A stretch of 34,544 bases of DNA, taken from positions 1-34,544 of IMG/VR virus record IMGVR_UViG_3300021952_000020; one strand, given 5' to 3'. Origin of the DNA: a virus. The translations under genes and the position numbers were made by a program. The notes beneath the pieces are model-generated. The model was not told the DNA's origin. It made no database searches and saw only the letters and a list, made by a program, of their open reading frames with translations. This document shows positions 1-31,051 of this stretch, in pieces. Each line of letters starts with the position of its first letter. The stretch's first letter is position 1.

Positions 1-13
1 ATCCTTAAAACTT

Positions 14-96
14 TGGTGAGCTGCCCGGGATTCGAACCCGGAAAAACCTGCGGTCTAAACGCAGTAACTGTGCCAATTTGTATATGTCAGCAGCTC
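14..96 (-). tRNA. tRNA-Leu (anticodon UAG)
   Basis: Acceptor GAGCTGC/GCAGCTC, T arm CCGGG-TTCGAAT-CCCGG and an encoded CCA are clear. The anticodon stem CTGCG/CGCAG closes loop TTTAGAC, so the anticodon is UAG at 55-57 and reads CUA. The variable region is only about 6 nt, although leucine tRNAs are normally class II with a long variable arm, and the D stem is weak. This is the last tRNA of the array inside the window. Beyond its CCA, bases 1-13 match the start of the array's recurrent spacer hairpin. Confidence 0.85.
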
Positions 97-201
97 AATA
101 AATCTTTAAACCCTACATCTGAGTTTACCCATAGCAGCAAACTTCGCAGCAGATTCTGCGCTATATGCTGACGCAGCAGCTTTTTTTAATTTAAAATAAA
201 C
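97..201. other. Spacer without a recognised gene
   Basis: About 100 bases between tRNA-Leu and the permuted tRNA unit. On the minus strand they hold several GC-rich inverted pieces built from GCTGC and GCAGA words. An open reading frame crosses them but has no ribosome binding site and continues through tRNA sequence, so I do not call it. Confidence 0.4.
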
Positions 202-315
202 AGGATGTATTCTTTGGGCTGACACTCTACCAACTGAGCTACAAGGTGCATTCACACCTTGGGTGGACTCGAACCACCGACGTTCTGCGTTTAAGAAGAT
301 TGCTGCAAACATCCT
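202..315 (-). tRNA. Circularly permuted tRNA in a spacer hairpin (anticodon probably UAA)
   Basis: Read on the minus strand, the 3' part of a tRNA comes first: loop CTTAAAC (295-289), GCAGA (288-284), variable ACGTC, T arm GGTGG-TTCGAGT-CCACC (278-262) and acceptor strand CAAGGTG (261-255). A 6-nt linker follows (254-249), then the 5' part: acceptor CACCTTG (248-242), D arm with GCTC/GAGT and a GG-containing loop, and TCAGC (222-218). The acceptor strands pair in all 7 positions. The anticodon stem TCAGC/GCAGA pairs 4 of 5. The split lies in the anticodon loop, which would read UAA (Leu). The unit is closed by an inner stem TTCTT/AAGAA and an outer stem AGGATGT/ACATCCT. No CCA is encoded. A dead tandem-duplication remnant is possible. 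Confidence 0.65.
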
Positions 316-320
316 AAAAC

Positions 321-420
321 TGGTTGAAGAGGACGGAACGGCGTATTTTCCATCGACGGAGCCTGTCTTACTCAACGCCGTATAGCTTCCGCAGGCGACA
401 GGCATAAGTTGCGCTCTTCA
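321..420 (-). ncRNA. tRNA-like, pseudoknotted RNA with encoded CCA
   Basis: The ends are those of a tRNA: a 7-bp acceptor TGAAGAG/CTCTTCA, discriminator A and CCA, directly followed by the spacer motif seen after other tRNAs of the array. The inside has no ordinary D, anticodon or TTCRA T arm. Instead CGGAA/TTCCG (334-338 with 387-391) and CGGCGT/ACGCCG (339-344 with 375-380) form a long interrupted stem. A 7-bp helix, GCCTGTC (361-367) with GACAGGC (397-403), crosses it as a pseudoknot. The GC content is higher than in the surroundings. I know no family with this layout. A reading frame also crosses it, but without a binding site. Confidence 0.5.
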
Positions 421-426
421 AAACTT

Positions 427-510
427 TGGTGGATAGTCACGGTAACGATCCGTGCGGGCTGAAGCAAGATCTTTACAGGCTCTCTCACCTCCTTAGTGGT
501 CTAACTATCC
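427..510 (-). tRNA. tRNA-Tyr (anticodon GUA), copy 1
   Basis: Acceptor GGATAGT/ACTATCC with encoded CCA. Anticodon loop CTGTAAA gives GUA at 474-476. The long variable region with a small GCT/AGC stem fits a class II tyrosine tRNA. Two points are unusual: the anticodon stem AGAGC/GATCT has a G-A mismatch, and the T-loop is ATCGTTA instead of the usual TTCRANY. A second, more regular tRNA-Tyr with the same anticodon lies at 2348-2434, so this copy may be diverging. Confidence 0.75.
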
Positions 511-523
511 ATTTGAAACTTAG

Positions 524-580
524 TACTCCCACGGGGATTCGAACCCACGTCGTTCCAGCCCATCTGACCGGTCTTACTAA
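524..580 (-). pseudogene. 3' part of a tRNA (possibly split or degenerate)
   Basis: A T arm with loop TTCGAAT and a GGG/CCC core, plus a 3' acceptor strand TGGGAGT with discriminator A, are visible. An anticodon-like arm CCGGT-CAGATGG-GCTGG lies upstream on the minus strand, with A instead of T before the putative anticodon. No matching 5' acceptor strand is adjacent. A complement, GCTCCCA, occurs at 1375-1381 on the far side of the homing endonuclease gene. This is either a decayed tRNA or the 3' half of one broken up by insertion. CCA is not encoded (CTA instead). Confidence 0.4.
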
Positions 581-581
581 T

Positions 582-674
582 TGGTAGTCCAGCTGGGTAA
601 CGCTCCCAGGACTTGCCCTCATCTAGAGCCTTGGCAGTTTATAAATCTGCGTGTTTTCTTTAAACTACTGGACC
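582..674 (-). tRNA. Degenerate class II tRNA (anticodon reads UAU)
   Basis: Acceptor GGTCCAG/CTGGACT pairs over 7 bp (one G-U) with discriminator A and encoded CCA. T arm CTGGG-AGCGTTA-CCCAG has a non-canonical loop. The D arm GTTT-AAAGA-AAAC lacks the GG pair. The anticodon stem is 4 bp with an A-A mismatch next to loop TTTATAA, giving UAU (641-643), formally isoleucine for AUA. The variable arm is long with its own stem. The first 10 bases overlap the 3' end of the homing endonuclease gene, whose stop codon lies inside the tRNA. Confidence 0.55.
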
Positions 675-1321
675 AATGTTTTTATAAACTCTAAATTTAT
701 TTGTCTATCTGATAAAATCACTACTACAATATCGTTAATTTCCATAGCAGATTCAATCTTGCGTCGATCCATTTTTATTAAATAATCGTTCTTTGGATCT
801 AAAAATATGTTATGTTTTGGAAGATAAAAATCTGGAATATACCTACGAATTTTTCCATTGTCGTTCCACTTATAACCTTGCCTAACTTTAACCCATTCTA
901 TATCTAACTTATCAAGTATTTCTGCAACTCTAACCTCATAAGACGATTCTAAAATGACACTAGGTTTATATTCAACATTTTTACTGTATTTCGAATGTTT
1001 AGCTAATCGTTCACATGCTTTGATTGACAACAAATCTTTGGTGGTTTCTGAGTGGCGGAACGTTCCAGCCTCAAACCCGCCCATCGAGGCACCAAGTTTG
1101 CCATAATATGATTGTTTGTCTCTATTGACATGACTTCGGCTAACATGCCCGCAAAGCCCAGCCCTACTATTAAACACCTTTCCACACACATCGCAGAAAC
1201 ACTCGACCATTTTCGATAAATACGAAGCGTTTCTATTAGGATTTAATTTACATAATCGTTCATGATTATGAAGTGAATTTAAATTTTTACATTCTTTGTT
1301 ACAAAATTTACATACTAGCAT
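665..1321 (-). CDS. Zinc-finger PD-(D/E)XK homing endonuclease
   Basis: A 218-residue protein with two N-terminal zinc-finger motifs: C4/C7 with H19/C23, and a C2H2 finger around residues 42-65 (CDVCG with HVSRSH). The C-terminal half has a PD-(D/E)XK nuclease signature: a Glu in SSYEVR, PDF in YIPDFYLP and DPK in IFLDPK. Free-standing endonucleases of this build occur in T4-like phages as homing enzymes that cut intron-less or gene-less alleles. It starts at ATG 1321 behind GAGG with good spacing and ends inside a downstream tRNA gene on the same strand. Its place within a tRNA array suggests recent insertion, perhaps breaking a tRNA (see 524-580 and 1340-1381). The specific cleavage site is unknown. 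Confidence 0.75.
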   Translation of the reverse strand: MLVCKFCNKECKNLNSLHNHERLCKLNPNRNASYLSKMVECFCDVCGKVFNSRAGLCGHVSRSHVNRDKQSYYGKLGASMGGFEAGTFRHSETTKDLLSIKACERLAKHSKYSKNVEYKPSVILESSYEVRVAEILDKLDIEWVKVRQGYKWNDNGKIRRYIPDFYLPKHNIFLDPKNDYLIKMDRRKIESAMEINDIVVVILSDRQINLEFIKTLVQ

Positions 1322-1339
1322 AAGTTATTCCTCTTATGC

Positions 1340-1381
1340 TATTTATGATTAAATCTTCGCCGCATGCCAATGCTTGGGAGC
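1340..1381 (-). pseudogene. Possible 5' part of a tRNA upstream of the homing endonuclease
   Basis: On the minus strand GCTCCCA (1381-1375) would pair over 7 bp with TGGGAGT at 525-531. It is followed by AG and a GCAT/ATGC pairing that could be a shortened D stem. The intact 3' part lies some 800 bases downstream, beyond the endonuclease gene and another tRNA. The complementarity is the only strong support, and a 7-nt match can arise by chance. Confidence 0.25.
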
Positions 1382-1393
1382 AATTTTGAAACT

Positions 1394-1479
1394 TGGTGCT
1401 GAGTGTAGGATTCGAACCTGCGGGGGATTACTCCGGTTGCTTACAAGGCAACTGCCGTCAACCACTTGGCTAACTCAGC
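1394..1479 (-). tRNA. tRNA-Thr (anticodon UGU) with long variable arm
   Basis: Acceptor GCTGAGT/ACTCAGC, discriminator A, encoded CCA. Anticodon stem GTTGC/GCAAC closes CTTGTAA, giving UGU (1443-1445). The variable region is 14 nt with GGA/TCC pairing, and the D arm resembles serine and leucine tRNAs. That is a class II body on a threonine anticodon, since normal threonine tRNAs have a 5-nt variable loop. The tRNA-Thr of phage T4 has the same anticodon loop and a similar acceptor end, so Thr identity is plausible. Confidence 0.8.
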
Positions 1480-1489
1480 AATAATAAAT

Positions 1490-1565
1490 TGGTACACCCA
1501 TACGGAATCGAACCGTCTCCTCATCCTCTTCAGGGACACGCGCAGACCACTTACGCCATAGGTGC
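1490..1565 (-). tRNA. tRNA-Phe (anticodon GAA)
   Basis: Acceptor GCACCTA/TGGGTGT, discriminator A, encoded CCA. D stem GCGT/GCGC with GG in the loop, anticodon loop CTGAAGA giving GAA at 1529-1531, T-loop TTCGATT. The anticodon stem relies on two G-U pairs. It follows tRNA-Trp by a few bases in the direction of transcription. Confidence 0.85.
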
Positions 1566-1571
1566 ATCGTT

Positions 1572-1645
1572 CGGCAGGAGTAGATAGAATCGAACTATCA
1601 TAGAGTGCTTTGGAGACACCCACACTACCATTGTGTTATACTCCT
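1572..1645 (-). tRNA. tRNA-Trp (anticodon CCA)
   Basis: Acceptor AGGAGTA/TACTCCT with discriminator G, D stem ACAC/GTGT, anticodon loop CTCCAAA giving CCA at 1611-1613, T arm GATAG-TTCGATT-CTATC. The three bases after the discriminator are CCG, so the terminal A must come from repair by nucleotidyltransferase. The anticodon CCA decodes UGG only, so there is no UGA-reading tRNA here. Confidence 0.85.
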
Positions 1646-1656
1646 AAAAATTAAAC

Positions 1657-1718
1657 AGGATTCCATTTTTGTCAATGTATCAGATTGATTTTATAAAAAT
1701 GTTTGCTGAAAGAATCCT
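1657..1718 (-). repeat. Inter-tRNA spacer hairpin, copy B
   Basis: Stem AGGATTC/GAATCCT (1657-1663 with 1712-1718) lies after the CCA of tRNA-Pro. It encloses the conserved TTTCAGCAAAC on the 5' side of the RNA and an inner stem CATTTTT/AAAAATG. GTTTA follows the stem and could pair with AAAC of the conserved motif as a pseudoknot. One of six copies in this array. Confidence 0.7.
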
Positions 1719-1724
1719 AAAACT

Positions 1725-1802
1725 TGGTCTCTCGCACACGATTCGAACGTGCATCCTCTACGCCCCAAACGTAGTGACTTAACCAGATTAGCCCAACGAG
1801 AG
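1725..1802 (-). tRNA. tRNA-Pro (anticodon UGG)
   Basis: Acceptor CTCTCGT/GCGAGAG, discriminator A, encoded CCA. Anticodon stem CTACG/CGTAG closes TTTGGGG, giving UGG at 1765-1767. T arm GCACG-TTCGAAT-CGTGT. The D stem has only three pairs. Its CCA is followed by spacer hairpin copy B. Confidence 0.9.
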
Positions 1803-1810
1803 ATAAAACT

Positions 1811-1886
1811 TGGCACTGCTGACGGGAGTCGAACCCGCGTATCTCGCTAGACAGGCGAGTATAATGAGCCGTTATATGACAGCAGT
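1811..1886 (-). tRNA. tRNA-Asp (anticodon GUC)
   Basis: Acceptor ACTGCTG/CAGCAGT, discriminator G, encoded CCA. Anticodon stem CTCGC/GCGAG closes CTGTCTA, giving GUC at 1850-1852. T arm GCGGG-TTCGACT-CCCGT. Discriminator G is the normal identity element for aspartate tRNAs. The acceptor stem is identical in sequence to that of the tRNA-Glu at 2681-2755. Confidence 0.9.
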
Positions 1887-1898
1887 ATAAAACTTGAC

Positions 1899-1952
1899 AG
1901 GATGAAACTTTTTCGATTAACGGTCGATTGTTTAGAGTGCTGAACTCATCCT
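1899..1952 (-). repeat. Inter-tRNA spacer hairpin, copy C
   Basis: Stem AGGATGA/TCATCCT after the CCA of tRNA-Ala. It encloses TTCAGCA, a shortened version of the conserved motif, and a CGA/TCG inner pairing. The two stem strands differ from the other copies by matching changes. Confidence 0.65.
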
Positions 1953-1960
1953 TGAAACCT

Positions 1961-2036
1961 TGGTGGAGTTGGCGAGCCTCGAACTCGCAAATGTCTGCTT
2001 GCAAAGCAGGTGCTGTACCAATTGAGCCACAACCCC
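1961..2036 (-). tRNA. tRNA-Ala (anticodon UGC)
   Basis: Acceptor GGGGTTG/CAACTCC (one G-U), discriminator A, encoded CCA. D arm GCTC/CAGC with GG, anticodon stem CCTGC/GCAGA closing TTTGCAA, giving UGC at 2001-2003. T arm GCGAG-TTCGAGG-CTCGC. A regular, functional-looking tRNA. The G3-U70 alanine identity pair is present as the third acceptor pair. Confidence 0.92.
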
Positions 2037-2347
2037 ATGAAATTCTAATATGCAAATAGTAAATTATGAATTAACCACTTGCATATTACCTTTCAGTAAT
2101 ACGGTTCTACTTTGGCTTTTCAACTATGATCTCGTCCACCAATGCTGGGCATGACTTCCAACACGGCGAACCTAAGAACTTGTACTATACAGTTGATTTA
2201 TACCCTCGGAAGTATCCGATATTAGTATCACGGGGTTTACATCATAAGACAATACGTTCTTTGAGACTCGGTATCCAAATTTTGCTAACAGATAGAACTA
2301 CCTGCGATGCCCGACGACATCTATTTGAGGTGTACACCCCAAAATTC
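2037..2347 (-). other. Gene-free, hairpin-rich stretch between tRNA-Ala and tRNA-Tyr
   Basis: No tRNA or credible reading frame is visible. A perfect 10-bp hairpin, TAATATGCAA/TTGCATATTA (2046-2055 with 2079-2088), lies just upstream of tRNA-Ala. Further pairings are CAGGTA-GTTC-TATCTG, GGGCAT/ATGCCC about 150 nt apart, TCGG-ATACTT-CCGA, and GGGGTnTAC with GTAnACCCC. Together they suggest a folded RNA of about 250 nt. I see none of the conserved core sequences of group I introns, RNase P or tmRNA. Confidence 0.4.
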
Positions 2348-2434
2348 TGGTGGTTGCCCTAGGAATCGAACCTAGCCAGCCCTATGAGCTTCGGATTTAC
2401 AGTCCGAGCCGCGTCCATAGCGGTATATGCAACC
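2348..2434 (-). tRNA. tRNA-Tyr (anticodon GUA), copy 2
   Basis: Acceptor GGTTGC/GCAACC, discriminator A, encoded CCA. D arm CCGC-TATGGAC-GCGG, anticodon stem TCGGA/TCCGA closing CTGTAAA, giving GUA at 2398-2400. The class II variable arm and T arm CTAGG-TTCGATT-CCTAG are regular. It is the better preserved of the two tyrosine tRNAs. Confidence 0.9.
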
Positions 2435-2440
2435 AATTAA

Positions 2441-2545
2441 AGCATTGAGCTGTCTAGGTTGGACTCGAACCAACAAAGGGATTAACCCATACTCGATTAA
2501 CAGTCGAGGCCGATGCCTATTCCGGTCACTAGACAGCTCAATGCT
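2441..2545 (-). tRNA. tRNA-Asn (anticodon GUU), extended acceptor stem, long variable arm
   Basis: The tRNA body spans 2450-2536: acceptor CTGTCTA/TAGACAG, anticodon stem CTCGA/TCGAG closing CTGTTAA (GUU at 2499-2501), T arm GTTGG-TTCGAGT-CCAAC. No CCA is encoded. The flanks 2441-2449 and 2537-2545 are complementary (AGCATTGAG/CTCAATGCT) and lengthen the acceptor helix to about 16 bp in the precursor. The variable region is about 17 nt with a GGG/CCC stem, unlike ordinary asparagine tRNAs. Maturation must open this helix and add CCA. Confidence 0.8.
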
Positions 2546-2558
2546 CTTATTACTAAAC

Positions 2559-2674
2559 AGGATCTCTCTTTTAAGTGCTATCCGCTACACCACACAAAGT
2601 TTTACCTTTGCGCTGGGATTCGAACCCAGCCCGTTTTCGCTCAATGAAATTAGAAAGGTTGCTGAAAAGATCCT
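2559..2674 (-). tRNA. Circularly permuted tRNA in a spacer hairpin (anticodon probably UGA)
   Basis: Minus-strand order is: anticodon arm TTTC-ATTGAGC-GAAA (2649-2635, anticodon UGA at 2641-2643, U33 present), variable ACGGG, T arm CTGGG-TTCGAAT-CCCAG (2629-2613), acceptor strand CGCAAAG (2612-2606), 6-nt linker GTAAAA, acceptor strand CTTTGTG (2599-2593), TG, D arm GTGT-AGCGGATA-GCAC (to 2575). Acceptor strands pair in 7 of 7. The new ends lie between D arm and anticodon arm. They are joined by inner stem CTTTCTAA/TTAAAAG (one bulge) and outer stem AGGATC/GATCCT of the spacer hairpin. Anticodon UGA would be serine, yet the variable loop is short. No CCA is encoded. It could be a remnant. Confidence 0.7.
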
Positions 2675-2680
2675 AAAACT

Positions 2681-2755
2681 TGGTACTGCTGACGGGTTTC
2701 GATCCCGCTTCCTTACCGTGAAAGGGTAATGTCCTAGCCACTAGACGACAGCAGT
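2681..2755 (-). tRNA. tRNA-Glu (anticodon UUC)
   Basis: Acceptor ACTGCTG/CAGCAGT, discriminator A, encoded CCA. Anticodon stem TTACC/GGTAA closes CTTTCAC, giving UUC at 2720-2722. T arm GCGGG-ATCGAAA-CCCGT, with A instead of T at the first loop position. Its CCA is followed by the spacer hairpin that holds the permuted tRNA at 2559-2674. Confidence 0.9.
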
Positions 2756-2782
2756 ATAACTACGTTCACTTACAAGTGAATT

Positions 2783-2857
2783 TGGCTGAGGAGGAAAGAC
2801 TCGAACTTTCTAACCTGAGGTCAAAGCTCAGTATCCATACCCTTGGATATCTCCCCA
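2783..2857 (-). tRNA. tRNA-Gln (anticodon UUG)
   Basis: Acceptor TGGGGAG/CTCCTCA, discriminator G, encoded CCA. D stem ATCC/GGAT, anticodon stem CTGAG/CTCAG closing CTTTGAC, giving UUG at 2822-2824. T arm GAAAG-TTCGAGT-CTTTC. The U1-A72 first pair is typical of bacterial glutamine tRNAs. Confidence 0.9.
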
Positions 2858-2870
2858 TTAAACTTCTAAC

Positions 2871-2927
2871 AGAATACCGTTTGCTTTCACAGCCTATAGT
2901 GAATTTAGTGTTTGCTGAAAGTATTCT
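2871..2927 (-). repeat. Inter-tRNA spacer hairpin, copy E
   Basis: Stem AGAATAC/GTATTCT after the CCA of tRNA-Gly. It encloses TTTCAGCAAACA and an inner TTCAC/GTGAA hairpin, and is followed by GTTAG. The stem differs from copies A-D on both strands, keeping pairing. Confidence 0.7.
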
Positions 2928-2934
2928 AAAATTT

Positions 2935-3010
2935 TGGAGCGGATGACGTGATTCGAACACGCGACGAACGGCTTGGAAGGCCGACACTCTACCAACTGAG
3001 TTACATCCGC
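2935..3010 (-). tRNA. tRNA-Gly (anticodon UCC)
   Basis: Acceptor GCGGATG/CATCCGC, discriminator U, encoded CCA. D arm ACTC/GAGT with GG, anticodon loop CTTCCAA giving UCC at 2975-2977, T arm GCGTG-TTCGAAT-CACGT. Discriminator U is usual for glycine tRNAs. The D arm and position 26 are nearly the same as in the permuted tRNA at 202-315. Confidence 0.9.
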
Positions 3011-3024
3011 ATCGTTAAATAAAC

Positions 3025-3081
3025 AGAATGGAATTTGTCGCGAGACATTGAAAGATCGCTGTTGTTTGCAGTATCCATTCT
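3025..3081 (-). repeat. Inter-tRNA spacer hairpin, copy F
   Basis: Stem AGAATGGA/TCCATTCT after the CCA of tRNA-Ile. It encloses CTGCAAACA and is followed by TGTTTA, which can pair with AAACA. It is the most upstream copy in the direction of transcription. Confidence 0.65.
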
Positions 3082-3087
3082 AAATTT

Positions 3088-3162
3088 TGGTGCATCACCT
3101 TGGGATCGAACCAAGGACTTATCACTTATCAAGCGATTACTCTACCACTGAGTTAGTGATGC
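3088..3162 (-). tRNA. tRNA-Ile (anticodon GAU)
   Basis: Acceptor GCATCAC/GTGATGC, discriminator A, encoded CCA. D arm ACTC/GAGT, anticodon loop TTGATAA giving GAU at 3128-3130, T arm CTTGG-TTCGATC-CCAAG. The anticodon stem ATCGC/GTGAT contains one C-T mismatch. Confidence 0.88.
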
Positions 3163-3321
3163 GATAAAAAATGTACTTCTGAACTAATTGGTGGTTGATA
3201 GTTCTACTAATAAACTATCAACCTTAAATTTGATGTGAGCTCTTTCGATGCAATTGCATGAACCTAACTATCGCTTGATATTATCTCAATTAGGGCCTCT
3301 TCATGCAACCTACTCACAACA
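3163..3321. other. Spacer with two long hairpins
   Basis: No gene is visible. A perfect 11-bp hairpin GGTTGATAGTT/AACTATCAACC (3193-3203 with 3213-3223, 9-nt loop) has no U-run on either side. A second, larger hairpin pairs TTGCATGAA (3254-3262) with TTCATGCAA (3300-3308) and CCTAA with TTAGG inside it. Both lie between tRNA-Ile and a degenerate tRNA. They may be processing signals of the polycistronic tRNA precursor. Confidence 0.4.
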
Positions 3322-3399
3322 TTAACAACGTCGGAATCGAACCGTGGAACTTTTAACCACTGTGTGATCTCACAGTATGCCACCAAGCATTCATTGTTA
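3322..3399 (-). tRNA. Degenerate class II tRNA (identity unclear)
   Basis: Acceptor TAACA(A/T) pairs with GTTGTTA over 7 bp, D arm ATGC-TTGGTG-GCAT with GG, T-loop TTCGATT. The anticodon stem CTGTG/CACAG closes only 6 nt, AGATCA, without the invariant U33, so no anticodon can be assigned. The variable arm is long (GTGG/CCAC). CCA is not encoded. It may be inactive or serve another purpose. Confidence 0.5.
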
Positions 3400-3438
3400 A
3401 TCGTTTGAAGTTCTGAAAATTTCCAAAACTTCGAATGT

Positions 3439-3507
3439 AGCGGACGTGGGATTCGAACCCCGCATCAGGGTTATGAGCCCTGCGTTCTACCGTTAAACTA
3501 CCTCCGC
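3439..3507 (-). tRNA. tRNA-Met (anticodon CAU)
   Basis: Acceptor GCGGAGG/CGTCCGC with one G-G mismatch, D arm GTTT-AACGGTA-GAAC, anticodon stem CAGGG/CCCTG closing CTCATAA, giving CAU at 3473-3475. T arm reduced to GGG/CCC around TTCGAAT, very short variable region, no CCA. If C34 is modified to lysidine it would read AUA as isoleucine instead; the sequence cannot decide this. Confidence 0.75.
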
Positions 3508-3540
3508 AACTTGTAACACACTCTTATCGAATGTGTATAA

Positions 3541-3619
3541 CTAACGATTCAGTGTTAGCAGATTTGAACTGCTATCTCGCCATAAGCGATGTTACTTACA
3601 CCAAACACTAACTCGTTAG
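3541..3619 (-). tRNA. Short tRNA-like gene (anticodon reads UAU) with extended acceptor stem
   Basis: The core at 3550-3610 has acceptor TAGTGTT/AACACTG, T arm AGCAG-TTCAAAT-CTGCT, a minimal D region without GG, and an anticodon arm whose loop CTTATGG reads UAU (3582-3584). It is only about 60 nt long. Flanks CTAACGA/TCGTTAG (3541-3547 with 3613-3619) extend the acceptor helix as in the tRNA-Asn precursor. No CCA is encoded. It is the first tRNA-like gene of the array in the direction of transcription. Confidence 0.5.
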
Positions 3620-4044
3620 TTATATTTGAATTTTACAATAGCGCGTTCCTGTCCGCTACTTCACTCCTCAAATACGCCCATTATTCGTTTTTATACAGGT
3701 TGGATTGGCTCGCGTTGCTCATTCCCTGTTGCTACTGTTTAAGCATTTTACTACAGTTTGTTTCTGTTGTAAAGCACTTTGTTTGCACTGCATCAACTTC
3801 GTTTCCGTTGTTGCTACAGTTTCGCTATATTAAACTAATGTGTGTAATTTGTAAAGCACTTTCTACACATCATTTGCAGCTTGGTGAACTAAGTTGCATC
3901 GTTTGCTACAGTTCAAACATTGTACAACAACTCACTTTCTTTGTAAAGCACTTTGTTGTATGTTGGAACTTGCTGTTTACTGCACACTTCCAACATGTCG
4001 CTATAGTACACACATCCAATAAGTTTGTAAAGCACTATTTGCTT
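3620..4044 (-). repeat. Array of alternating hairpins with a TGTAAAGCACTTT repeat
   Basis: TGTAAAGCACTTT or a near copy occurs at 3768, 3850, 3942 and 4026, so 82-92 nt apart. At least two copies lie in the loop of a hairpin with a different stem each time, for example TACAACAA/TTGTTGTA at 3923-3930 with 3953-3960. Between them lie hairpins of a second type near a GCTACAG-like motif, such as ATGTTGGAA/TTCCAACAT (3960-3968 with 3988-3996). No reading frame on either strand looks real. The array sits just upstream of the tRNA genes in their direction of transcription and could be a leader RNA, protein-binding array or origin. Confidence 0.6.
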
Positions 4045-11403: not shown

Positions 11404-11622
11404 ATGTGCCATACAAAATTTTCATTAGAAGGGCTGAAACGGTTACAACGTGCTGGTGGTATAATGTACGTTCAACTTCCAAAAGGCGTATCTACAGTTT
11501 CACAATTGCGCGAATGTTGTAACGAAACCGTACCTGACGAACTGGTAACCGCATGGTTTAACTGCGTTACTGCAAAGCTGGAATTAGAAGCAGCTATGTC
11601 TAAATTTGGATTGGGCGAATAA
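11404..11622 (+). CDS. Hypothetical protein upstream of RNA ligase
   Basis: 72 residues, soluble, with AAAGGAGCC 5 bases before the ATG. No known motif; three cysteines (C2, C37, C38) and a C-terminal helix (LELEAAMSKFG). It is the first gene after the promoter at 11328 and is followed by the RNA ligase start within two bases of its stop. Confidence 0.6.
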   Translation: MCHTKFSLEGLKRLQRAGGIMYVQLPKGVSTVSQLRECCNETVPDELVTAWFNCVTAKLELEAAMSKFGLGE

Positions 11623-11623
11623 A

Positions 11624-12700
11624 ATGAGCTTCTACAACATACCAAAGAATTTGACAGACTTAAATCACTTCCGCAACAATCCTATGGTGCAGTTTAAGGA
11701 AGAAACTGTAGGTGGCGTTGAAGTTGTTATCCCGTGTTACATGATCGCCGATGCTGATCTGTGGAAGCAGCCGTTCGCAACTGAATTGCGAGGACACGTT
11801 TTCCGAAAAGACACGGGTGAGTTAATTTCCGCCGCATTGCCAAAATTCTTCAACGTAGGTGAAAAGGTGGATACTCAGCGACACATTCTTCCTTGGGACG
11901 AAGTGGCTAGTATTGCTGATAAACGCGACGGTTCAATGATCACGTTTGCCGTTATCAATGGAAAGGTGTATGCAAAAACCAAAAAATCGTTCTACTCGGA
12001 TGTTGCAAAACTTGCACAGGCGCATTTAGATCGCGCTGAATCTGAAGGGGTGGGGTCGCATATCGCTTACGAGTTGGCGTCGGGTCGGTCTCCTGTATAT
12101 GAATTTTGGCACCCAGAGTGGCAAATCGTGTTGAACTACGGATCTGTCCCATCTGCAACATTTCTCGGTATTCGAGACATGAATAACGGAGAATGGCAAC
12201 CGGAACACATCGATACAACTGCCCGAATTCAAGACTTAGAAACCTGGCAATATACCGCAGAAGGTGTCGAGGGTGTTGTTGTACAGTTTAAATCCGGGTT
12301 GGTGGTAAAAGCGAAAACTGCCTGGTATTTGCGCCAGCACCGCGTTCAAACTGAACTTCGTGAACGCGACGTTGCTGAAATGGCAGCAGACGAAAAATTG
12401 GACGATGTTAAATCTGCCATTTCAGAAGCCGGATTGGAGTTAGCGTTGGTTGAAGATATCGAACGTCGTGTTGCGGCTGATATCAATACGGTCAGAAACG
12501 AAGTGTTAAAAGTCGTTGCAAATGCAAAACTCGCAAACATTCAAACACCAAAAGAAATGGCAATCCGATATAAAGGGCACATCTGGTTCGGGCTTATTAT
12601 GAACGAATTTCGTGGTTTGGAAACAGACTACGTTTCCCATTTCAAGAAGAATATGTTAGCGACATATTCCTTGCGATGCGTTTACAACACGAAATTTTAA
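11624..12700 (+). CDS. T4 Rnl1-type RNA ligase
   Basis: 358 residues from ATG 11624; an in-frame upstream TTG would overlap the gene before. It joins 5'-phosphate and 3'-hydroxyl RNA ends with ATP. Motif I KRDGS has the adenylated lysine at about 100, close to Lys99 of T4 Rnl1. Upstream LRGHVFR and LPKFFNVGE match the family's N-terminal signature. Motif III is around YELASG, motif IV EGVVVQF, motif V VVKAKTAWYL. The C-terminal helical domain, which gives tRNA specificity in T4 Rnl1, is present (about 260-358). In T4 this enzyme reseals tRNA cut in the anticodon loop, and the kinase/phosphatase partner is not in this window. The phage's permuted tRNAs would be natural substrates. Confidence 0.9.
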   Translation: MSFYNIPKNLTDLNHFRNNPMVQFKEETVGGVEVVIPCYMIADADLWKQPFATELRGHVFRKDTGELISAALPKFFNVGEKVDTQRHILPWDEVASIADKRDGSMITFAVINGKVYAKTKKSFYSDVAKLAQAHLDRAESEGVGSHIAYELASGRSPVYEFWHPEWQIVLNYGSVPSATFLGIRDMNNGEWQPEHIDTTARIQDLETWQYTAEGVEGVVVQFKSGLVVKAKTAWYLRQHRVQTELRERDVAEMAADEKLDDVKSAISEAGLELALVEDIERRVAADINTVRNEVLKVVANAKLANIQTPKEMAIRYKGHIWFGLIMNEFRGLETDYVSHFKKNMLATYSLRCVYNTKF

Positions 12701-15897: not shown

Positions 15898-17388
15898 ATG
15901 GCGTCAGCATTAGAAAAACTACGCAAGGCCTCTACAATCAAAGACACTGCGATTTTATCACAGTCTGTATTTTTTGAAGATAAGGACAGAATTTCTGTCC
16001 CAGTGCCCATTCTTAATGTGGCGTTAGGCGGGTCTTTATTTGGCGGTCTTACTCCTGGCTTGACCATGTGGGCTGGACCGTCAAAGCACTTCAAGACTTC
16101 GTTTAGCCTGTTGATGGCAAAGGCGTACCTTGATAAGTACCCCGAAGCGGTTTTACTATTCTACGATTCTGAGTTTGGAACCCCGCAGTCATATTTCAAA
16201 TCGTTCGGTATCGACGCAGATCGGGTAGTACATACGCCGATCACAGATATCGAAGTTCTGAAGCATGATTTAGTGACACAGATGCAAGGGTTATCACGTG
16301 GGGACAAAGTCATTATTTTAATTGACTCCATCGGAAACTTAGCATCCAAAAAAGAAATGGACGATGCGCTCGAAGGCAAAACTGTCGCTGACATGACTAG
16401 AGCTAAACAACTGAAGTCGCTGTTCCGTATGGTTACCCCGTACTTAACGATGAAAAACATCCCGTTGATTGCAGTGAACCACACTTATAAGACGCTCGAG
16501 CTTTACGCAAAGGACGTCGTTGGTGGAGGTTGTGTTGTTGAAGGGACGAAGATTCGTCTTGCTGATGGTTCTCTGAAATCAGTTGAAGACTTTGTCGTTG
16601 GTGATTTGGTAGAAACTAAGTTAGGTCCTAAACGTGTTTCTGCAACCTGGAATCCTACTACGCTAGACGATGGGGAGCCCGAGTGCTTCCAAGTTGTATT
16701 TGACAATCCATTTGTTGATAACGACTTTGTCGTATGTTCTGATAAGCATAAGTTTTTGGTGAACGGTCAATGGGTAGAAGCAAAAAATCTGTCAGAGTGT
16801 GAGGTTGTTGATTCAGTGAGTGGGGGTAGAGTTAAACTAGCTTCAGTTACACCTATCGGACGCCAAAAAGTGTACGACTTGTCCGTAGAAGATGCCGAAC
16901 ACTATGTCCTTGAACATGGTGTTGTAACACATAACACCGGAAGTTACTACAGTTCCGACAATATCTTTATTGTTGGTCGGCGTCAGGAAAAGGACGGGGA
17001 CGAAGTATCCGGCTATTCCTTTATCATTAACGTAGAGAAGTCCCGTTATGTGAAAGAGAAGTCTAAGATTCCGGTGACCGTTCTGTACGACGGCGGTATT
17101 AGCCGTTATAGTGGCATTTTTGATCTTGCGTTAGAATCCGGTCACATTGTCAAAGCTGCATCGCAAGGGTTCTATCAATTGTGTGACGTAGATACTGGCG
17201 AAGTTAGCGAAAAGAAATTGCGCCGAGCGGCTATTGAGACGGATAGCTCTATCATGGAAAGTATTTTAAACCACCCGAAATTTGACGAATTCGTCATTAA
17301 GACGTATCGACTGGCAGAAGGTGCTATGATCCAAGACGTTCCTGTGTTTAGTACACTGGGGCCAGATTCAGAGGTTCCAAATGAGTGA
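15898..17388 (+). CDS. uvsX: UvsX/RecA-type recombinase containing an intein
   Basis: 496 residues before splicing, 361 after. Forms filaments on single-stranded DNA and promotes strand exchange. Walker A is GPSKHFKTS (60-68), as in T4 UvsX GPSKSFKS. Walker B is VIILIDS (138-144). After the intein the protein resumes with TGSYYSSDNIFIVGRR, the L2 to C-terminal core. The intein runs from Cys212 to Asn346 and separates VVGGG from TGSYY, the DNA-binding loop region. Start ATG 15898 follows AAAGGTTAAG and the stop of the preceding small gene. The 3' end overlaps the next gene by 8 bases. Confidence 0.9.
   Translation: MASALEKLRKASTIKDTAILSQSVFFEDKDRISVPVPILNVALGGSLFGGLTPGLTMWAGPSKHFKTSFSLLMAKAYLDKYPEAVLLFYDSEFGTPQSYFKSFGIDADRVVHTPITDIEVLKHDLVTQMQGLSRGDKVIILIDSIGNLASKKEMDDALEGKTVADMTRAKQLKSLFRMVTPYLTMKNIPLIAVNHTYKTLELYAKDVVGGGCVVEGTKIRLADGSLKSVEDFVVGDLVETKLGPKRVSATWNPTTLDDGEPECFQVVFDNPFVDNDFVVCSDKHKFLVNGQWVEAKNLSECEVVDSVSGGRVKLASVTPIGRQKVYDLSVEDAEHYVLEHGVVTHNTGSYYSSDNIFIVGRRQEKDGDEVSGYSFIINVEKSRYVKEKSKIPVTVLYDGGISRYSGIFDLALESGHIVKAASQGFYQLCDVDTGEVSEKKLRRAAIETDSSIMESILNHPKFDEFVIKTYRLAEGAMIQDVPVFSTLGPDSEVPNE
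16531..16935 (+). mobile_element. Mini-intein in UvsX
   Basis: 135 residues, in frame. Block A begins with Cys (CVVEGTKIRLADGS). Block B-like SDKHKFLVNGQWVEAKNL has the conserved His in SDKH, where most inteins have T..H. Block F YDLSVEDAEHYVLEHGV leads to the terminal HN. The first extein residue is Thr. No homing endonuclease domain is inserted, so it can splice but not move by itself. It lies at GGG/TG, a conserved loop in the recombinase. Confidence 0.9.
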
Positions 17389-29129: not shown

Positions 29130-30356
29130 TCACTTCAACGAATCTCTAATTAACTCTACGTCCATCATATATGTGCCAGTTTTAATTCTGTGGTGGATTG
29201 CAGAAATTGTCCACTTACCCGATAGGCTTACTTTGTCACCAGCATCCGCCGAAATTGCGTCGTTGATTAACACATTAACCGTAGATCCTAACCCAACGAT
29301 CGAATTTCCTGGAACGGTTAGATGTAGTTTTACCACGTCAATTTGCTCTATAAAACTTAAACGCTGTAAGGCCCACGCCTTATAGTTCTTTCCGTCCCCG
29401 TTTGCTGACAGTCGCGTCGAGCTATATTTAATCACTCTTCTGGGTAACGATTTAGTAAGATCCACACCCTTAACTCCTTTAGATATTACCGGAGTAGAAT
29501 TTGGCTTGTTGAACGCCGCAAGGTAATTGTAATTGCTCACCACACACCCTTTAGAAAGCACATCTTTATCTACAAGTTGTCCGCCTAACAATCCATCCAT
29601 AACACCTTCGACAATATCGTATGCGGACTCTATCTTATAACTTTCGATAGTTGATAATCTGTACATTGAACTATCGCTAGATGTTGTCGTTGCCATGTTT
29701 GGATCCCTTGCGATCCACGCCATTACAGGCTGATTAGAAAATAACGTTTCCAACGACTTGAAGTGAAATTGCTGGTCGAACGATTCGTACAAAAGGTAAG
29801 ACGGCTGACCGCCCTTACTCGCTATCGCCCGTGATGCCAGTAAGTTTATCGTGTAGAACGGATTCCAATATGCTGAAATGATATTTGCAAGCGAAGATGT
29901 AGGCTGAACATTAACAACCTTTTTAGAATTCAAGTCGTTCTTTAAAATTGAACTGATAACGCTTTCTGTTGGGCCGCTATACGCCTTAGATGTTAATGTC
30001 AACACATTGTCGATATACTCTTGCGATACACATTCTAACGTGTAAATTTTTGCAACTGGGCTGATAGGCTGAATGTTTGCAATTTTATAGATCACAAATT
30101 CTAATTGAAATAACGTTTCCAATTCAGCTTTTCTAAGTTTTATAGACACGCTCTCATTACCAACTAACGGAATTCGTTCTAACATACCAGCAACGTCGCT
30201 AATGACGAGCTGGCACGAAAGCGTGTTGCAAAACACATCTTCGTAAATATGGATTTCAGGTGCTAAACTCGAAATTCCGACTACTTTCCCATTTTGACTG
30301 GTTATCGTTACTGATTCAACTTCGATGCCACTGGGGATTGTTCCTAATGCCATCAT
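29130..30356 (-). CDS. Baseplate hub, gp27-like
   Basis: 408 residues. Position directly before the gp5-like spike and the pattern VISDVAGMLERIPLVGNESVSIKL, then YTLECVSQEYIDN, are those of the T4 gp27 family, which forms the trimeric hub on which the spike sits and which continues the tail tube. Its start overlaps the stop of the gp53-like gene (ATGA). A C-terminal beta domain ending TYMMDVELIRDSL closes the protein. No enzyme motif. Confidence 0.8.
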   Translation of the reverse strand: MMALGTIPSGIEVESVTITSQNGKVVGISSLAPEIHIYEDVFCNTLSCQLVISDVAGMLERIPLVGNESVSIKLRKAELETLFQLEFVIYKIANIQPISPVAKIYTLECVSQEYIDNVLTLTSKAYSGPTESVISSILKNDLNSKKVVNVQPTSSLANIISAYWNPFYTINLLASRAIASKGGQPSYLLYESFDQQFHFKSLETLFSNQPVMAWIARDPNMATTTSSDSSMYRLSTIESYKIESAYDIVEGVMDGLLGGQLVDKDVLSKGCVVSNYNYLAAFNKPNSTPVISKGVKGVDLTKSLPRRVIKYSSTRLSANGDGKNYKAWALQRLSFIEQIDVVKLHLTVPGNSIVGLGSTVNVLINDAISADAGDKVSLSGKWTISAIHHRIKTGTYMMDVELIRDSLK

Positions 30357-31051
30357 GCACCTTTCAGTATAGTAGCAGCTTCAGCAACAATCTTTTCCGC
30401 ATGTACTTTGAGAGGAAGTTTAATCATGCGGTGCTTATCATTTAAAGAGGTTTCATAGTCAATGTTTCGAACATATACTAAGTCTGTTCCTGTGTACACA
30501 TTTAGATCGACTACGATGCCTTTACTATTCACCACATGATGAACCGCATTTATGGTATCGAACTTAGTAGTTTTTGTGCCTGAAATTAACGACGGGGTGT
30601 TTAGCGTTACGTTGTTCCCGTTTATCGAAGTAACATACAGATTAGTTGGAATACCGACGCCGGCAAGGGATGCACCCACTAAAATGTTAGTTGGATCAGA
30701 CACCACTATCACGTCCGAATTAAGTGTGAAGGTTGCTTGTGTAGATACGTTATAATTCTCGCTTGCGTATTTTATGACCTGCTTATGCGGTTTGGGCCAT
30801 TGAGCCATGGTATTAACGATATCGTTATACATCAAGATGACCCAGTGCCATTCGGGATTCCCATACACTTTATTGGCAATCACGTCAGGGCTTTCGCCGT
30901 CAGAGATGATATACGTCTGGTATGTCAGCACATTTTTCTTAACAATTTCCTCAACCTTAAATCTTCTAATAATGTGGCGAAGTGTGTATGTGTTTGGATC
31001 AGTTTCACTGAAATAGTATTGAATTGTTGGAAAATTTTCAAAAAATGCCAT
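30353..31051 (-). CDS. Baseplate wedge, gp53-like
   Basis: 232 residues. The N-terminal 100 residues (FFENFPTIQYYF ... NPEWHWVILMYNDI) match the gp53 family that joins the T4 baseplate wedges to the hub. The segment GESPDVIANKVYGNPEWHWVI also looks like a LysM-type fold, as in T4 gp53. The rest, 105-200, is a beta insertion not present in T4. The start overlaps the stop of the gp48/54-like gene by one base (TAATG). Confidence 0.85.
   Translation of the reverse strand: MAFFENFPTIQYYFSETDPNTYTLRHIIRRFKVEEIVKKNVLTYQTYIISDGESPDVIANKVYGNPEWHWVILMYNDIVNTMAQWPKPHKQVIKYASENYNVSTQATFTLNSDVIVVSDPTNILVGASLAGVGIPTNLYVTSINGNNVTLNTPSLISGTKTTKFDTINAVHHVVNSKGIVVDLNVYTGTDLVYVRNIDYETSLNDKHRMIKLPLKVHAEKIVAEAATILKGA

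Follow-up and report, generated by a model that had tools for sequence, protein, structure and literature searches.

Y RNAs combine a constant, protein-binding stem with variable domains. Immunity by tRNA cleavage and the tRNA arrays of phages form an active field, in which phage tRNAs are thought to counter the attack. A bacterial Y RNA (PDB 6CU1) superposes on tRNA once circular permutation is allowed for (PMC11472068), and for YrlA, competitive inhibition of an anticodon nuclease has been put forward as a possibility (PMC7790460). In algae and one archaeon, permuted tRNA genes pass through a circular intermediate carrying a bulge-helix-bulge signal as they mature (PMC3978253).

In this study, we established the structure, covariation, modularity and genomic setting of a phage hairpin, here called copy D, that encloses the arms of a tRNA in circularly permuted order. 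The window, i.e., the whole stretch of DNA analysed (34,544 nucleotides), corresponds to a 34.5-kb virus record of IMG/VR; it is a genome fragment and encodes tail and replication genes of the T4-like type. We propose that copy D is a phage non-coding, tRNA-mimic RNA of a modular hairpin family whose displayed shape would serve, by analogy, as a decoy, and we put the probability of this whole explanation at roughly 0.6. Its component claims differ in strength. That copy D mimics a tRNA rather than maturing into one is highly probable, while the decoy role against tRNA-cleaving or tRNA-modifying enzymes, which is drawn by analogy, is tentative and falls slightly short of even odds. The elements of copy D, in minus-strand order, are as follows.

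1–3630, minus strand: tRNA array in which copy D lies
2559–2674, minus strand: copy D, constant-stem hairpin around a circularly permuted tRNA-like domain
2674–2679, minus strand: 5′ flank GTTTTA, exact complement of TAAAAC in the acceptor cap loop (predicted pseudoknot)
2668–2674, minus strand: constant stem, 5′ arm AGGATCT
2659–2664, minus strand: conserved CAGCAA of the internal loop
2635–2649, minus strand: anticodon-like hairpin TTTC-ATTGAGC-GAAA, loop at 2645–2639
2613–2629, minus strand: T arm CTGGG-TTCGAAT-CCCAG
2606–2612, minus strand: 3′ acceptor strand CGCAAAG
2600–2605, minus strand: acceptor cap loop GTAAAA, 6 nt, earlier taken for a linker
2593–2599, minus strand: 5′ acceptor strand CTTTGTG, pairing 7/7 with 2612–2606, one pair being G-U
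2575–2590, minus strand: D arm GTGT-AGCGGATA-GCAC
2559–2565, minus strand: constant stem, 3′ arm AGATCCT, then TGTTT

A previous sequence-only reading had described an anticodon arm followed by the T arm, the 3′ acceptor strand, six nucleotides, the 5′ acceptor strand and the D arm, with acceptor strands pairing at seven of seven positions. This order is present on the minus strand and the pairing was seen (with the one G-U pair); the span which that reading gave, 2559–2674, is exactly that of the enclosing hairpin. Its placement of the anticodon arm is backed by the relatives, but the arm has only four pairs, and ARAGORN reads TCT. The tRNA-Arg(TCT), split at 31/32, that ARAGORN calls on self-joined copy D was rejected, as the relatives do not support it. 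RNAfold on copy D and unguided RNAalifold on 11 relatives returned the same arms. A strict signature (T arm, 7/7 acceptor and D arm) is found in the window in copies D and A only; it was matched in none of 500 mononucleotide shuffles of the array and in 10 of 42,000 trials in which shuffling was applied to the 60 nt that follow each T loop. Searching IMG/VR for the literal copy D junction gave no match, and relatives sought with two window proteins as anchors gave almost none.

The six spacer hairpins of the window have common ends. Besides copy D, the array contains the following copies.

202–315, minus strand: copy A, constant-stem hairpin around another permuted tRNA-like domain, with a full-length match to Rfam YrlA
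1657–1718, minus strand: copy B, constant-stem hairpin with anticodon stem-loop TCAAT-CTGATAC-ATTGA
1899–1952, minus strand: copy F, constant-stem hairpin with a 4-bp anticodon-like loop, TCGA-CCGTTAA-TCGA
2871–2927, minus strand: copy C, constant-stem hairpin with hairpin TTCAC-TATAGGCT-GTGAA, 8-nt loop
3025–3081, minus strand: copy E, constant-stem hairpin, variant CTGCAA
1–13, minus strand: possible extra copy cut off at the window edge, CAAAGTTTTAAGGAT after a tRNA CCA (sequence only)

Different permutation points had been suggested for copies D and A, which could not be established, for D-like and A-like inserts alike have the hairpin first, then the T arm, the acceptor and the D arm. The further suggestion that the two permuted cloverleafs, which sit in spacer hairpins of one kind, have a common basis is supported across all loci, where 23 of 31 signatures lie inside a constant-stem hairpin. 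Of the eight outside it, four or five are enclosed by a hairpin of this type whose stem letters differ.

Several other parts of the array and its surroundings were recorded. Adjoining copy A on its upstream side, a sequence of about 100 nt at 316–425 (minus strand; 3′ end CTCTTCAACCA) has an 8-bp acceptor-like stem, TTGAAGAG/CTCTTCAA, and no tRNA call; it is possibly a degenerate tRNA or another tRNA-like RNA. Two more tRNA-like folds on the minus strand lack an ARAGORN call: the one at 3310–3415 has a 6-nt anticodon loop (CTGTG-AGATCA-CACAG), and the one at 3530–3630 is within a long inverted repeat and apparently has no normal D arm. An ORF of 218 aa within the array (665–1321, minus strand), whose C2H2 zinc-finger matches are weak and under the curated cut-off, may encode a homing-type endonuclease. 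Between the array and the first genes (3729–4040) there are imperfect repeats with TTTGTAAAGCACTTT at the end. On the plus strand, a UvsX/RecA-like protein is encoded at 15898–17388, with weak intein and HINT matches in mid-protein, and the tRNA-Val(aac) that ARAGORN calls at 30785–30866, antisense inside an ORF at 30353–31051, is probably spurious.

The pattern of the 5′ arm drawn from this window occurs at 111 places in IMG/VR, mostly in tRNA arrays, and distant versions such as that of Enterococcus phage VRE9_3 are undercounted because the pattern derives from this window. A systematic collection from IMG/VR comprised 196 hairpins at 113 loci, many of which come from related environmental phages, so that these counts do not represent independent events. 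Their loop (insert) lengths are bimodal, at 37–56 and 71–111 nt. A fully pairing 3′ arm is present at 77 of 99 unique motif sites, compared with 2 when the insert was shuffled, and 73 of these 77 sites are near a T loop. The consensus of 173 copies is GTTTTAGG[AT]TNN-NTN-CAGCAA ... AAA..NNA[TA]CCTGTT. In these copies CAGCA always starts 3 nt past the 6-bp arm, a spacing that the search pattern favours, and stem positions 5 and 6 are free in their letters with pairing kept, 6/6 pairing being a selection rule and not independent proof. A CCA lies at most 14 nt upstream of the hairpin in 129 of 185 copies. Among named phages, the hairpins are carried by Synechococcus phage BUCT-ZZ01 and Stenotrophomonas phage vB_SmaS-DLP_6; in VRE9_3, a permuted copy occurs within a hairpin that shares the ACAGCAA motif and differs in its stem letters. 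The constant-stem pattern was not found in bacterial and archaeal genomes, and searches of the open-access literature returned no prior description of phage tRNA-mimic hairpins. The hairpins form a large and apparently undescribed family that is dispersed among the tRNA arrays of large phages, its members each displaying a different tRNA piece.

Three kinds of insert were distinguished: anticodon stem-loops, acceptor-less cloverleafs, and permuted cloverleafs as in copies D and A. The unique short inserts number 111. A perfect hairpin with 5 bp and a 7-nt loop is present in 82 of them (shuffles: mean 9.6, maximum 19), one with U33 in 71 (shuffles: 2.2, maximum 6), and one with Y32-U33-R37 in 56 (shuffles: 0.55, maximum 4). 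By sequence, these hairpins look like anticodon stem-loops. The most frequent displayed loops are CUUGUAA, CUUUUAA, CUGUUAA, and CUUCUAA. U36 is present in 45 of 72 displayed loops vs 35% of the 1,484 intact tRNAs of the same loci, and C36 or G36 in 8 of 72 (U or A in 64) vs 43% of those tRNAs, a bias at base 36 that may be inflated by A+T-rich inserts and phage kinship. Of the long inserts, 37 have a T arm followed by an acceptor hairpin, i.e., the permuted arrangement of D and A, and in 18 the T arm lies close to the 3′ end; several of these 18 are acceptor-less cloverleafs in normal order.

Covariation was analysed in two groups of permuted copies. In the D group (A2, 11 sequences), 93.8% of cells are paired and 33 cells show double changes, compared with a shuffled mean of 9.6 and with none of 500 shuffles reaching this value. 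Compensatory changes occur at six of the seven acceptor pairs, and shifting the partners by one column abolishes the pairing. The A-like group (A3, 15 sequences) has 98.4% paired cells and 49 double changes (shuffled mean 12.1; 0 of 500). A complement of at least 5 nt between flank and loop was present in 11 of 36 cases (shuffles: mean 0.78, maximum 4), a count in which the GACC-type relatives are akin to each other and not independent. In the D subgroup, the flank and cap are complementary in five co-varying versions: TGACCA/TGGTCA in relatives, GTTTTA/TAAAAC in copy D, TACCTA/TAGGTA in BUCT-ZZ01, AGTTTA/TAAACT in L109, and TTACCA/TGGTAA in L110. The cap loop of copy D thus probably pairs with the 5′ flank in a predicted pseudoknot.

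The alternative that survives best, though it is unlikely, is that the hairpins are true Y RNAs, whose constant stem would be bound by Ro60/Rsr (a host or a divergent phage protein) and whose tRNA-like end would link a nuclease. Their architecture is YrlA-like, and YrlA (RF02553) is the sole relevant Rfam match: copy A matches it over positions 1–114, the full length, with 33 bits (E 1.6e-4; gathering score 69), copies in L036 and L093 also match over the full length, and the tRNA-like domain shows the permuted arrangement, with its T arm, its D arm, and an acceptor stem closed by a cap. The score does not exceed 41 bits in any record, always under the gathering score of 69, and low matches to the model also occur in 11 of 14 control genomes. 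Given these sub-threshold scores and the weak matches in ordinary genomes, the relation of the phage hairpins to YrlA is one of likeness and not of membership. Microbacterium phage A3Wally does have this kind of domain in the neighbourhood of a Ro-like gene: a query built from the relatives of D matches a tRNA-like RNA about 2.7 kb from that gene, and the YrlA score of this RNA is also just 40.8. Against true Y RNAs, the search for Ro60 (TROVE) in 83 records, which covered the window (a fragment) and about 80 parent contigs of up to 369 kb, gave no match except A3Wally; the records without a match include the complete genomes of BUCT-ZZ01, DLP_6, and VRE9_3. In a by-eye comparison with the RF02553 consensus, the stem letters of YrlA (AUGC / AAACUUG) are not present in the 173-copy consensus. 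We rate copy D as a new kind of tRNA mimic that resembles Y RNAs. That the hairpins form a new, Ro60-independent phage RNA family, with a protein-binding constant stem and swappable tRNA pieces acting as decoys against tRNA-cutting or tRNA-modifying enzymes, is a tentative proposal with a chance somewhat below one half.

It is improbable that the copies are non-functional relics, i.e., spacer hairpins acting as signals for transcript processing or stability that took up broken or duplicated pieces of tRNA through recombination. Arrays of tRNA genes recombine readily and the inserts hold every kind of tRNA piece, as this explanation would have it. It has to contend with compensatory changes in the acceptor, T and constant stems, with the preserved flank-loop complementarity and with anticodon stem-loops that recur far above chance, all of which indicate selection for structure.

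The sequence-only reading had taken copy D for a permuted tRNA gene, which would yield a working tRNA through ligation of its ends and RNase P cleavage within the 6-nt linker. We consider this very unlikely. Copy D does have the full set of cloverleaf arms, a 7/7 acceptor and halves in inverted order, and ACCA is encoded past the 3′ acceptor in some relatives (L080, L111, and L117). A T4 Rnl1-type RNA ligase gene (PF09511) is located in the window at 11606–12700 on the plus strand; ligases of this type are a known tool against host tRNA-cleaving defences. The gene is compatible with either a mimic or a permuted tRNA, and a search of 24 records detected the Rnl1 family in just 3. The supposed linker is a capping loop of 3–7 nt in most permuted relatives, and in many of them, including many A-like ones, the 3–5 nt leave no room for a leader, a discriminator, and CCA. 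Moreover, the cap loop complements the 5′ flank in the D subgroup, which is hard to square with obligatory RNase P cleavage of a linker. The anticodon loop is variable: it reads CTGAAAA, CTGTAAA, or CTGCAAA among the closest, otherwise near-identical relatives of D, and is often 4–6 nt long in A-like relatives. The ACCA-bearing copies have no anticodon arm, and those of L080, L111, L041, and DLP_6 could be taken for remnants of tRNAs. A splicing signal of the bulge-helix-bulge type is not visible; both such splicing and a group I permuted intron were rejected, the flanks measuring only about 20 nt each before the next tRNA. Most hairpins of the family, including the short ones, contain a partial tRNA only and cannot yield a tRNA. 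An integron attC-like or MITE-like DNA element seems unlikely because the loops are tRNA-like and G-U pairs are present.

We propose the following scheme for the phage tRNA mimics. The constant stem, whose internal loop has the motif CAGCAA facing an A-run, carries an interchangeable insert taken from tRNA architecture, which in copy D is a cloverleaf open at the anticodon side with a short loop closing the acceptor end. Because the hairpin directly follows tRNA CCA ends, the RNA is probably excised from the tRNA transcript by ordinary tRNA end-processing. The conservation of the constant stem suggests that it is probably bound by a putative protein partner. By analogy, the displayed tRNA shape would most likely act as a decoy or competitor, in the first place for host tRNA-cleaving defences and in the second for tRNA-modifying enzymes.

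If this proposal is true, RNAs that mimic individual parts of tRNA would constitute a second, RNA-only and widespread counter-strategy of phages. They would account for the “spacer” hairpins and the odd tRNA-like pieces of phage tRNA arrays and would offer a route to the protein that reads the constant stem. The proposal also advises caution, as predictions of permuted tRNAs in phages may be tRNA mimics. It is testable in carriers that are in culture, Stenotrophomonas phage DLP_6 and Synechococcus phage BUCT-ZZ01.

Compared with known systems, copy D is like the permuted tRNA genes of algae and one archaeon (PMC3978253) in that the 3′ half precedes the 5′ half and a short spacer joins them. 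In contrast to those genes, the spacer of the phage RNAs is a conserved cap loop, and the hairpin set has no consistent anticodon. With YrlA (RF02553; PDB 6CU1), the phage hairpins share a terminal permuted cloverleaf that is open at the anticodon side and has its acceptor stem capped by a short loop. They differ from YrlA in their sub-threshold scores, in having no Ro60 gene, in their stem letters and in often occurring in many copies per array; most of them hold just an anticodon stem-loop or a partial cloverleaf. The RNAs C and D of phage T4 (species 1 and 2; L123, 1909–2172) resemble the family as stable non-tRNA transcripts within a phage tRNA cluster. Inspection of the T4 cluster region showed no constant stem or CAGCAA hairpin, and without the constant stem these RNAs were rejected as homologues of the hairpin family. 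RNA C has a T-arm-like hairpin near its 3′ end, and T4 RNAs C and D might also be tRNA mimics.
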